Below are positions 30,973 through 34,373 of a DNA stretch of 64,000 bases, in pieces. The stretch lies in assembly GCF_020215645.1 (NCBI RefSeq), contig NZ_CP084058.1, forward strand, positions 9,486,001 to 9,550,000. Reading direction: 5' to 3'. Origin of the DNA: Nonomuraea gerenzanensis. GTDB lineage: Bacteria > Actinomycetota > Actinomycetes > Streptosporangiales > Streptosporangiaceae. The notes beneath the pieces are model-generated. The model had not been told where the DNA came from. It ran no database searches and worked only from the letters and a program-made list of their open reading frames with translations. The translations under genes and the position numbers were made by a program. How positions within the stretch are numbered: position 1 is the stretch's first letter; each line of letters opens with the position of its first letter.

Positions 30973-31136
30973 GCCTGCGCGGCCCCTTGATCGCCCACCA
31001 CCATCACCTGCCCGGGCCCCTGATGGCCTACCACCGCCTACAGGACACCTGCGCGGGCCCCTGATGGCCTACCACCGCCTACAGGACACCTGCGCGGGCC
31101 CCTGATGGCCTACCACCGCCTACAGGACACCTGCGC
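30973..31136. repeat. Tandem array A: three perfect 41-bp copies plus one degenerate copy
   Basis: Identical 41-bp units occupy 31014-31054, 31055-31095 and 31096-31136, with a diverged copy at about 30973-31013. The array fills the gap between the convergent kinase and tetR genes. The third unit contains the tetR stop codon and its last codons. Each unit holds CAGG-ACA-CCTG and GGCC-N6-GGCC, so it can fold into short hairpins. There are no spacers, so it is not CRISPR. Confidence 0.93.
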
Positions 31137-31707
31137 GGGCGGCGGCCAGCGCCGCGTCGGCGGCGCGGTCGGCGTCACGCTCGCTCACCGGCTCGTGCGC
31201 CACGAACAGCCGGTAGTACACGGGCGCGACCGCCACCCTGATCACCTCACTCGCATCGATGACCTCGGGCAACTGCCCCCGCGCGACCGCCCGCCGCACC
31301 ACCTCGGCCGACTGCTCGTGCCTGGCCGCGAAGAACCCGTGCAGCGCCCGCGCGGCAGCGGCATCCTGAACGGCCGCCGCCACGAACGCCGACGACACCG
31401 GCCCCAGCTCCGGATCGGCGAACCCGCTCCGCACGAGCTGGACGACCCCCCGCAGATCCCCCTCGATCGATCCGGTGTCGGGCACGGGCCACGGCTCGGT
31501 GGCGGCCAGCGCCAGCGCATCGGCGATCAGCCCCTCGACGCCGCCCCAGCGCCGGTAGACGGTCGTCTTGTGCACGCCTGACCGCTCGGCGACGTTCTCC
31601 ACCGTCAATCCCTGGTAACCCCGCTCGGCCAGCTCGGCCAGCGTGGCCTGCCGCACGGCGTCACGCACCCGCGCGCTCCGCCCTCCAGGACGCCTGCTCG
31701 TCTCCAA
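31120..31707 (-). CDS. TetR-family regulator of the ABC-F/vgb cassette
   Basis: A 195-residue regulator. The N-terminal helix-turn-helix (about 15-60) reads ELAERGYQGLTVENVAERSG and VHKTTVYRRWGG. The C-terminal ligand domain resembles the TetR_C_11 type found in AcrR-like efflux regulators. TTG 31707 is the start, with GGAG 6 bp upstream. It is divergent from the ABC-F gene across 73 bp that hold two direct repeats. Its last codons and stop lie inside the third unit of array A, so the C-terminus may have been set by the duplication. Confidence 0.88.
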   Translation of the reverse strand: METSRRPGGRSARVRDAVRQATLAELAERGYQGLTVENVAERSGVHKTTVYRRWGGVEGLIADALALAATEPWPVPDTGSIEGDLRGVVQLVRSGFADPELGPVSSAFVAAAVQDAAAARALHGFFAARHEQSAEVVRRAVARGQLPEVIDASEVIRVAVAPVYYRLFVAHEPVSERDADRAADAALAAARAGVL

Positions 31708-31710
31708 AAA

Positions 31711-31765
31711 CTACTCCAGTTGCATTAGCCCCGATCCCGTGTAACACTAACGCTACCCCAGTTGC
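31711..31765. promoter_or_regulatory. Paired 13-bp direct repeats, candidate TetR operators
   Basis: CTACTCCAGTTGC at 31711-31723 and CTACCCCAGTTGC at 31753-31765 differ at one base and are 42 bp apart, about four helical turns. The first overlaps an inverted AACT-N5-AGTT. They flank the start region of both divergent genes. Confidence 0.5.
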
Positions 31766-31780
31766 GATTGGAGCTCCATC

Positions 31781-33436
31781 CTGATCAGCCTCCACAAGGT
31801 CTTCAAGTCCTACGCCGAGCGCGCCGTCCTCACCGGCGTCTCCCTGTCCGTCGGCCCGGGCGAGCGGGTCTGCATCGTCGGCGAGAACGGCTCCGGCAAG
31901 TCCACCCTGATGCGCCTGCTGGCCGGCGTCGAGCACCCCGACGACGGCGAGATCAGGGTGACGGGTGACGTCGGCTACCTCTCCCAGACGCTCGACCTGC
32001 CGCCGACCCACACCGTCCGGCAGGCCGTCGACGCCGCGCTGGCCGGCCTGCGGGCCATGGAGCGCAGGATGCGGGAGCTGGAGTCCGCCCTGACCGACGA
32101 GGTCATGGACGAGTACGGTGAGCTGCTCACGGCGTACGAGCTGCGTGGCGGCTACGAGGCCGACGCCCGCGTCGACCGCGCCTTCCACGGCCTGGGCCTG
32201 GCCCACGTAGGCCGCGACCGGCGGCTGTCCAGCCTGTCGGGCGGCGAGCAGGCCCGCCTCGGCCTGGCCTGCGTGCTGGCCGCCGCGCCGAGCGTCCTGC
32301 TGCTCGACGAGCCGACCAACCACCTCGACGAGTCCGCCCTGACCTGGCTCGAAGACCGGCTGCGCGAGCACAGGGGCGCGGTGGCCGTGGTCTCGCACGA
32401 CCGCGTCTTCCTCGACCGGGTCGCCACGGCGATCGTCGAGGTCGAGCACGGCTCCGCCACCCGCTTCGGCGGCGGCTACCAGGGCTTCCGCACGGCCAAG
32501 GCAGCGGCCAGGGCCCGCTGGGAGCAGGCGTACGCGTCCTGGTGCGAGGAGGTCCGCCAGATCCGCGACTACGCCGCCACCACCGCCCACCGGGTGGCGG
32601 CCGGCCGAGTCATGCGCGACAACAACAAGATGGCCTACGACCGCAACGCAGGCCGGGTCCAGAGCTCGGTGGCCACCCGCGTCCGCCACGCCCACGAACG
32701 CCTGCGCCGCCTGGAGACCAACCCCGTCCCCCGCCCGCCGGCCCCCCTCCGCTTCCAAGGCACCTTCACCACCACGTCCACCTCCCCCGCCGACCAGCAC
32801 GACCCCACGCCCCTCCCCGACACGGCCGCACACCTCCCAGGCACGGCCGCACACCCGCGCCCCGGCATGACCGCTCCCCCACTCCCCGGCACGGCGGCTC
32901 CTCCACTCCTCGAACTACGTGACGTGCGGATCGACAACCGGCTGCGCATCGAGTCGCTGACACTCGGAAGGGGCGACCGGCTCCTGGTGCGGGGGCCTAA
33001 CGGCGCAGGCAAGTCCACCCTGCTGCACACCCTGGCCGAGCGGGCGACCGGTTGCCGCGTCGGCTACCTCCCGCAGGAGGTGACGTTCGACCCCGCCCAG
33101 AGCGTGCTGGAGGCGTACGGCGTGGGCTACGCCGACGAACGCCGCGCCGCACTCCTGAACACCGGCCTCTTCCAAGCACACACCCTCGACCAGAAGGTGG
33201 GCACGCTGTCGGTCGGCCAACGGCGCAGGCTGGCCCTGGCCAAGCTGCTGGCGCACGAGCACGACGTCCTGCTGCTCGACGAGCCGACCAACCACCTGTC
33301 ACCCACCCTGGCCGAGGAGCTGGAGCAGGCCCTCACCGCCTACCGGGGCACGCTCGTCCTGGTCTCGCACGACCGCGCCCTCGTCCGCCACTTCCACGGC
33401 ACCGAGATCGAGCTGATCGAAGGACGCATCCGCTGA
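31781..33436 (+). CDS. ABC-F family ATPase (ribosome-protection type), CTG start
   Basis: A 551-residue protein with two ATPase cassettes and no membrane segment. Cassette 1 has Walker A GENGSGKST, signature LSGGEQARLGL and LLLDEPTNHLDES; cassette 2 has GPNGAGKST, LSVGQRRRLAL and LLLDEPTNHLSP. The linker region carries VMRDNNKMAYDRNAGRVQ, followed by a Pro/Thr/Ala-rich stretch (about residues 338-380). ABC-F proteins of this class dislodge macrolides, lincosamides, pleuromutilins or group A streptogramins from the ribosome. No ATG, GTG or TTG lies in frame between the TAA at 31748 and Walker A. CTG 31781 has GGAG 7 bp upstream and gives the family N-terminus MISLHKVFKSY. Confidence 0.88.
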   Translation: MISLHKVFKSYAERAVLTGVSLSVGPGERVCIVGENGSGKSTLMRLLAGVEHPDDGEIRVTGDVGYLSQTLDLPPTHTVRQAVDAALAGLRAMERRMRELESALTDEVMDEYGELLTAYELRGGYEADARVDRAFHGLGLAHVGRDRRLSSLSGGEQARLGLACVLAAAPSVLLLDEPTNHLDESALTWLEDRLREHRGAVAVVSHDRVFLDRVATAIVEVEHGSATRFGGGYQGFRTAKAAARARWEQAYASWCEEVRQIRDYAATTAHRVAAGRVMRDNNKMAYDRNAGRVQSSVATRVRHAHERLRRLETNPVPRPPAPLRFQGTFTTTSTSPADQHDPTPLPDTAAHLPGTAAHPRPGMTAPPLPGTAAPPLLELRDVRIDNRLRIESLTLGRGDRLLVRGPNGAGKSTLLHTLAERATGCRVGYLPQEVTFDPAQSVLEAYGVGYADERRAALLNTGLFQAHTLDQKVGTLSVGQRRRLALAKLLAHEHDVLLLDEPTNHLSPTLAEELEQALTAYRGTLVLVSHDRALVRHFHGTEIELIEGRIR

Positions 33437-33500
33437 CCTCCACCACCGCAGCCCGCCACCCAACCAGAACGACCACCAACACCACCATCGGGGGACACAC

Positions 33501-34373
33501 ATGCTGACCAAGATCGAGGCAGGCGCGCCGTACGGCATCGCGACCGCTACCGACGGAGCCATCTGGTTCACACTCGCCCACCAGGGCTGCGTCGGCAGGC
33601 TGGTGCCAGGCGAGGAGCCCGTGATCCACCGGCTCGACCCGGCCGACGGTCTACCGACCGTGATCACGAGGGGGCCCGACGACGCGATGTGGTTCACCGA
33701 GTACAAGGGCGGGCGCATCAGCCGCATCACCGCCGACGGACAGCTCGGCATCCACAGATCGAGCACCCCGTACGGCATCACAGCCGGACCAGACGGAGCC
33801 ATGTGGTTCACCCAACTCGAAGCCACCAAGATCGGGCGAATCGACCCCGACGGGTCGTTGACCGAGTACGAGGTACCGGTGGAGGGCGGCATGCCGTCAT
33901 TCATCACGGCGGGCCCTGACAACGCCCTCTGGTTCACCCTCAACCAGGGCCACGCGATCGGCCGCATCTCACTCACAGGCGAGGTCACCGTGTATCCGCT
34001 ACCCACCGAGGGAGCGGCCCCGGTAGGCATCACGCTCGGACCAGACGACGCTCTCTGGTTCGTCGAGATCGGCGCAGGCCAGATCGGCCGGATCGACACC
34101 TCGGGCAGAATCACCGAGTATCCGCTCCCCGACCGGACCGCGCGCCCACACGCGATCATCACCGGACCCGACGGCGCCCTCTGGTTCACCGAATGGGCCG
34201 CCAACCGGGTCGGCCGCATCACCGTCGAAGGCGCCATCGAGGAGCATCCGCTGCCCACCATGCCGGGCGAGGGCGAAGACCAGGGCAAGGCCGAGCCCCA
34301 CGGCCTGACGGTCGGGCCCGACGGGGCGATCTGGGTCGCGCTGGAGGCAGGAGCACTGGCCCGCCTCACCTGA
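33501..34373 (+). CDS. vgb: Virginiamycin B lyase (streptogramin B lyase)
   Basis: A 290-residue seven-bladed beta-propeller that linearises group B streptogramins by cleaving the thioester-free ring at the ester bond through elimination. The blade motif GPDGALWFTE recurs seven times. The family's functional residues appear conserved: His 217 (RPHAI), Glu 265 and His 267 (AEPHGL) correspond to the substrate-binding His, metal-binding Glu and general-base His of staphylococcal Vgb, and Glu 282 may be the second metal ligand. It lies 64 bp after the ABC-F gene in the same direction. ATG 33501 has GGGGA just upstream. Length matches Vgb. Confidence 0.9.
   Translation: MLTKIEAGAPYGIATATDGAIWFTLAHQGCVGRLVPGEEPVIHRLDPADGLPTVITRGPDDAMWFTEYKGGRISRITADGQLGIHRSSTPYGITAGPDGAMWFTQLEATKIGRIDPDGSLTEYEVPVEGGMPSFITAGPDNALWFTLNQGHAIGRISLTGEVTVYPLPTEGAAPVGITLGPDDALWFVEIGAGQIGRIDTSGRITEYPLPDRTARPHAIITGPDGALWFTEWAANRVGRITVEGAIEEHPLPTMPGEGEDQGKAEPHGLTVGPDGAIWVALEAGALARLT

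Follow-up and report, generated by a model that had tools for sequence, protein, structure and literature searches.

A stretch of 64,000 nucleotides from the chromosome of Nonomuraea gerenzanensis (the window; contig C1, 9.486-9.550 Mb, of a three-contig assembly totalling 12.07 Mb) carries, in facing arrangement, the gene of a TetR-family repressor (31120..31707, minus strand) and two genes on the plus strand, one for an ABC-F protein of the ribosome-protection type (31781..33436, the start being probable) and one for a virginiamycin B lyase (Vgb; 33501..34373). The Vgb and ABC-F proteins have 100% identical counterparts in record NZ_LT559118. We estimate a probability of about 80% that these genes constitute an intrinsic, drug-inducible streptogramin resistance cassette in which the defences against group A and group B streptogramins are placed under one switch. 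The sequence features that suggest this are the gene order, a pair of operator-like sites between the divergent genes, the active-site residues of Vgb, the affinity of the ABC-F protein to producer-type proteins, and the replacement of ABC-F by a Vat-like acetyltransferase in related loci. A first-pass annotation had proposed a two-pronged resistance to streptogramins A and B, encoded by an ABC-F and a Vgb gene 64 bp apart and opposite a TetR gene. All three genes are present, the gap between the ABC-F end (33436) and the Vgb start (33501) is indeed 64 bp, and the proposal gains support from the alternation with Vat, from the position of the ABC-F protein outside the housekeeping types and from the retention of the Vgb catalytic residues.

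In the proposed mechanism, TetR bound at both sites would shut off its own gene and the presumably common transcript of ABC-F and Vgb, and a streptogramin (A, B or both) would release it. The ABC-F protein would clear the peptidyl transferase centre of the group A streptogramin and, probably, of lincosamides and pleuromutilins; Vgb would open the ring of the group B streptogramin by C-O cleavage. Since streptogramins A and B act in synergy, one would expect the two defences to be paired under a common switch. Lincosamides, streptogramin A and pleuromutilins are the classes countered by TiaA and Are5sc of Streptomyces coelicolor (PMC12421871).

Vgb and its partner genes

Vgb (290 amino acids) matches Pfam profile PF24684 over its full length (residues 7-289; 411.2 bits, cut-off 50), and its sequence also matches the solved Vgb structures 2qc5, 2z2n and 2z2p. 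Window residues Y11, H217, E265, H267 and E282 align with Y18, H228, E268, H270 and E284 of E. faecalis Vgb(A), the active-site residues of that enzyme. His 217, Glu 265, His 267 and, less firmly, Glu 282 had been pointed out beforehand; all four fall on active-site positions of Vgb(A), and Y11 completes the set. A Vgb with a lost active site is thereby excluded, all five residues being kept in the sequence alignment. At the position of H267 the solved chain 2z2p has A, not H, as expected for an active-site mutant. Across 107 aligned rows, Y18 is kept in 106, H228 in 107, E268 and H270 in 105 each and E284 in 104; L095 deviates at every position except H228, L150 at the last three and L148 at E284 alone. 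L095 is a second, partial Vgb-like gene of the same genome (G000:C1:6582150-6582722), and L150 is a Vat-linked Vgb-like frame of 380 amino acids. Window Vgb and Vgb(A) are identical at 126 of 279 positions (45%), and judged by its sequence the window protein is a relative, not an allele, of Vgb(A) or Vgb(B).

We then asked which gene lies beside Vgb in other genomes, counting as partner a neighbour at a gap of less than 1.6 kb. A first set of 106 Vgb loci gave 64 with ABC-F, 13 with Vat and 29 with neither, and the best 80 of 532 named genome loci gave 34, 25 and 21, respectively. Once duplicates and three unsuitable rows were removed, the two sets together left 153 distinct loci: 71 with ABC-F, 37 with Vat, 45 with neither and none with both. 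Three of the 71 ABC-F genes are remnants only (L083, L085, L089) and others are cut by contig ends; L084, with a short ABC-F remnant, was counted as having neither, and the Vat calls of L215, L237 and L242 rest on partial matches. On a Streptomyces plasmid the Vgb gene overlaps the acetyltransferase gene by 4 bp, and the closest solved relatives of this Vat-like protein are streptogramin/virginiamycin A acetyltransferases (1khr, 7hzv, 6x3j and others). A Vat-like gene adjoins Vgb at L171:3318-4870, L123, L125, L131, L132 and other loci, an actinobacterial counterpart of vat-vgb. Because a Vat-like acetyltransferase so often adjoins Vgb where ABC-F is absent, the logic of a joint defence against A and B is supported, and the simplest reading of the alternation is that ABC-F and Vat do the same job, defence against group A streptogramins.

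The partner of Vgb has switched repeatedly on the Vgb tree. With 12 of its 105 rows labelled as Vat-linked, the tree requires this label to change 5 times, and starred branches force at least 4 of these changes. L092, for instance, is a Vat-linked Vgb (Vat lies 944 bp away) inside an ABC-F-linked clade, and the same genome has an ABC-F cassette (L059). By-eye inspection of 20 flanking proteins, with no profile search, revealed no further group A defence beside 21 partnerless Vgb genes.

The ABC-F protein might instead set the function of the locus as a general protector against lincosamides, streptogramin A and pleuromutilins, with Vgb as a useful neighbour and a non-streptogramin, e.g. a pleuromutilin or a lincosamide, as inducer. 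These are indeed the classes that TiaA and Are5sc protect against, with pleuromutilins as the speciality of TiaA (PMC12421871). The partner switches speak against this explanation, as the alternative partner is Vat-like, with best solved relatives named streptogramin A acetyltransferases, and in decayed loci it is Vgb, more often than ABC-F, that stays with TetR. We regard it as unlikely, although it is the best placed of the alternatives to the streptogramin cassette.

Distribution and affinity of the ABC-F protein

Vgb is found at E 1e-60 or better in 48 of 54 Nonomuraea genomes. ABC-F matches at 1e-80 or better occur in 42 of the 54, some of them only through a paralogue of about 50% identity, and at 67% identity or more in 37. 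At 33 of 50 Vgb places in the genus, ABC-F is the same-strand gene immediately upstream of Vgb; contig ends truncate several further loci. The gene order ABC transporter-HAD-kinase-TetR-ABC-F-Vgb is found repeatedly across the genus, with local differences, and its first part, as far as TetR, in many loci. Since the cassette is chromosomal and syntenic, it looks intrinsic to the genus, which agrees with the earlier suggestion of intrinsic resistance. In the family, 61 of 200 genomes have Vgb, 11 of them in the genus; outside the genus, 40 of 51 Vgb places were examined, and 19 of the 40 have ABC-F, 18 of those with a divergent TetR. In a sample of the phylum such a Vgb occurs in at least 10 of 396 genomes, that of the window included.

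The same synteny bears on whether the genes provide self-resistance for a streptogramin-type biosynthetic cluster, or are the relic of one. Several ARE5 ABC-F proteins do sit in antibiotic clusters (PMC12421871), and the nearest NCBIfam model of the window protein is a producer family. Against this stand the conservation of the locus across the genus and the content of the window, where, as first proposed, no antibiotic cluster is visible: no polyketide synthase or nonribosomal peptide synthetase was found among the ten window proteins scanned, and a cluster of these types was rejected to that extent. The three longest open reading frames by codon composition correspond to a DNA polymerase III alpha-type protein, a calcineurin-like phosphoesterase and one protein without Pfam match. 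An origin in such a cluster is very improbable.

The best NCBIfam model for the ABC-F protein is NF000171 (TlrC/CarA/OleB/SrmB), at 591.6 bits, against 448.9 with CarA, 378.9 with the general protection model NF000355, 271 with EttA and 246.5 with Uup. For comparison, the paralogue L158 of the same genome reaches 808.6 bits with NF000171, over its cut-off, and the Streptomyces counterpart L166 405.8 bits with NF000355. A 71-protein tree places the window ABC-F with other Vgb-linked ABC-F proteins and with the producer-type L158, and a branch with 99% support in the Shimodaira-Hasegawa-like approximate likelihood-ratio test (SH-aLRT) parts it from the generic ABC-F proteins of the genome, L162 and L163; the tree was built by a quick method with a midpoint root, the program warns of long branches meeting at the split, and no named ARE5 proteins are included. 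The protein thus looks like a producer-type ABC-F, although it stays below curated cut-offs; the TlrC/CarA/OleB/SrmB proteins belong to the ARE5 group. A housekeeping, EttA/Uup-like ABC-F beside a beta-propeller of another function, which would agree with EttA being the best solved structure by sequence among the matches listed, is hardly credible, given the lead of the producer profile, the split from L162 and L163, the intact Vgb residues and the skew of the structure comparison, in which none of the 60 matches listed of 579 is named as TlrC/CarA/OleB/SrmB-type.

Full-length ABC-F proteins of these loci span 473-763 amino acids, and the length differences among the relatives compared lie mainly in a variable, low-complexity linker (approximately 32757..32897, plus strand, in the window) that joins the first half to the second nucleotide-binding domain. 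In some Nonomuraea (L042, L044, L048, L053, L054) this linker is strongly enlarged with low-complexity repeats; L048 has an additional insert near residue 72, and in two genomes draft contigs terminate in or near the linker (L075-L078). Two Streptomyces plasmids carry a second, distant ABC-F gene convergent on Vgb (L164:6601-8247; L166:6668-8323, minus strand).

Several observations weigh against the explanation as a streptogramin cassette. Both proteins fall below the cut-offs of their closest curated models, the ABC-F protein clearly with NF000171 (591.6 against 800 bits) and narrowly with NF000355 (378.9 against 380), and Vgb by a wide margin with the VgbA and VgbB exception models (249.8 and 260.7 bits against 600). 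The 153 loci share ancestry and were sampled for their similarity to the window Vgb, so that the count of zero loci with both partners is not a probability; 45 of these loci have neither partner. Within the genus, some loci keep TetR and Vgb but have lost ABC-F or retain it only in reduced form at its usual place (L082, L083, L084, L085, L089, L093), in others Vgb directly follows the kinase gene with neither TetR nor ABC-F (L087, L088, L090), and one has ABC-F without an adjoining Vgb (L079). Because such loci exist, the pair is not strictly needed together. Lastly, Vgb might have a promoter of its own in the 64 bp that follow ABC-F, although none emerged from the promoter scan. In one of the reduced loci, L085, the frame from the ABC-F start continues into Vgb.

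Operator-like sites and the ABC-F start codon

The TetR protein (195 amino acids, TTG start) matches the Pfam profiles for both its N- and C-terminal domains (TetR_N, PF00440; TetR_C_11, PF16859), and a divergent TetR gene, identified by tblastn, adjoins ABC-F at 66 of 69 distinct ABC-F starts. Between the TetR and ABC-F genes of the window lie 73 nucleotides, within which two direct repeats (31711-31723 and 31753-31765) are identical at 12 of 13 positions and start 42 nucleotides apart. The paired repeats already noticed here prove to lie in two conserved operator-like sites, O1 (31705..31727, CTACTCCAGTTGCATTA, an imperfect inverted repeat) and O2 (31748..31773, TAACGCTACCCCAGTTGCGATTGGAG). 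A 15-mer pattern derived from the repeats has 2 matches in the whole genome, both at this place, and a reversed control pattern has 1. In 43 intergenic regions of the short-leader group, window included, the mean share of the commonest letter is 0.95 in O1 and 0.91 in O2 but 0.53 in the spacer. Of the 47 short-leader loci, 38 have two exact GTTGCR cores; each of the other 9 has one exact core plus a second that differs at one position. The palindrome, imperfect in the window, is fuller in some relatives, with CTTAACGCAACTAGTTGCGTTAAG in L124 and GTAACGCAACTCCAGTTGCGTTAG in L249; L093 has a fuller form too.

O1 overlaps the TetR ribosome-binding region and the candidate -35 element of the ABC-F promoter, and O2 covers the predicted start point of transcription together with the ABC-F Shine-Dalgarno sequence. 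The candidate promoter for ABC-F and Vgb (TTGCAT-17-AACACT, 31720..31748, plus strand) is proposed from its footprint only; its strict form is present in 30 of the 43 loci, and a generic sigma-70 scan found no promoter. TetR with such sites also stands directly before Vgb where the ABC-F gene is gone (L082, L084, L093, L245, L249, L254, L255), and this links the regulator with Vgb too.

The ABC-F protein (551 amino acids) most likely starts at CTG 31781, judged by homology and an alignment of starts. Homology extends upstream of ATG 31910 to this codon, which is preceded at a distance of 7 bases by a GGAG Shine-Dalgarno sequence (31770-31773). ATG 31910 itself was rejected, as it lies behind Walker A and would drop that motif from the protein, and the codon before CTG was rejected because ATC stands there in only 25 of the 47 short-leader loci. 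Across the 69 distinct loci the aligned start codon is CTG in 56, ATG in 9, TTG in 3 and GTG in 1, and in the short-leader group it is CTG in 46 of 47, the window included. Database records place the start variously: P0004 (550 amino acids) begins at the second residue, P0005 and P0014 begin one residue before the CTG leucine, P0011 and P0018 start internally and P0019 starts behind Walker A (starts as read by us). Translation from CTG would be expected to limit ABC-F expression.

A second group of 19 loci, 3 of them in Streptomyces, has long leaders of 124-216 nucleotides between the TetR and ABC-F genes. In four of these (L142, L153, L165, L166), cassettes with an ATG start, the leader may contain a small upstream open reading frame, and leader folding allows a stem over the ABC-F Shine-Dalgarno sequence; folding energies of whole leaders are not unusual (z -1.7 to 0.0 against mononucleotide shuffles). 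An attenuator in these four leaders is only a lead. The long leader with an upstream frame that is associated with ARE5 attenuation is absent at the window locus. Because the Nonomuraea-type leader has little room for such an attenuator, it is TetR that seems to carry control in loci of this type.

Known systems and neighbouring features

A close precedent is staphylococcal vat(A) plus vgb(A), where defences against group A and group B streptogramins likewise go together; both genes are reported for one S. aureus test strain (PMC10685826). The window locus differs in having target protection by ABC-F where the staphylococcal system has Vat, in the local TetR gene that stands opposite the two resistance genes, and in its place on an actinomycete chromosome. 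Actinomycetes also have Vat-Vgb pairs. VarR and Pip are streptogramin-responsive TetR repressors of Streptomyces that control efflux genes; the likeness lies in TetR-type control of streptogramin resistance and the difference in the efflux targets. The WblC/WhiB7 regulon of Streptomyces coelicolor offers a parallel in which one regulator reaches Vgb and ABC-F (PMC7157823, PMC12421871), but WblC is global, with 312 genes (PMC12421871), whereas the window has a candidate local repressor with two sites.

Likened by description only, the ABC-F protein is an actinobacterial producer-type protein comparable to the ARE5 proteins TiaA, Are5sc and LmrC and, like TiaA and Are5sc, lies outside a known antibiotic cluster (PMC12421871). 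The tiaA and are5sc genes have long 5' leaders of 194 and 232 bp with upstream open reading frames, and are5sc is under WblC (PMC12421871); the window differs from them in its short intergenic region, its two operator-like sites and its CTG start. Vgb belongs by sequence to the family of Vgb(A), Vgb(B) and VgbC, sharing the five active-site residues with Vgb(A); VgbC is active on linopristin (PMC5155152).

The TetR/ABC-F/Vgb cassette was not described in the titles and abstract openings of the open-licence literature searched, which is weak evidence of novelty, and neither its spread, the alternation of ABC-F and Vat, the control by TetR through two sites nor the conserved CTG start was met there. 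We regard the locus as a real variant, undescribed as far as searched, whose parts all come from known families. More tentatively, and at somewhat less than even odds, we propose a broader scheme: a modular actinomycete cassette against A and B, in which Vgb is constant and ABC-F and Vat are interchangeable, with the Nonomuraea-type TetR and two operators replacing the ARE5 attenuator and ABC-F held low by its conserved CUG start. The locus and its relatives present paired streptogramin defence in non-clinical bacteria and point to where paired resistance may have been assembled. They also supply a TetR that may sense the drug, together with its candidate sites, and a case of a conserved CTG start codon on whose position public annotations disagree.

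Scans of the window gave 0 Rfam matches at gathering scores and 0 tRNA genes. Between the kinase and TetR genes, a 41-bp unit (CTGATGGCCTACCACCGCCTACAGGACACCTGCGCGGGCCC) is repeated about three times in tandem (approximately 31015-31140), and the array extends into the 3' end of TetR. Further downstream, a long frame (36444-38420), inspected by eye, resembles in its second part a flavin adenine dinucleotide (FAD) monooxygenase and contains the repeated peptide LGLGRQLDAERQ at approximately 37900-38050.

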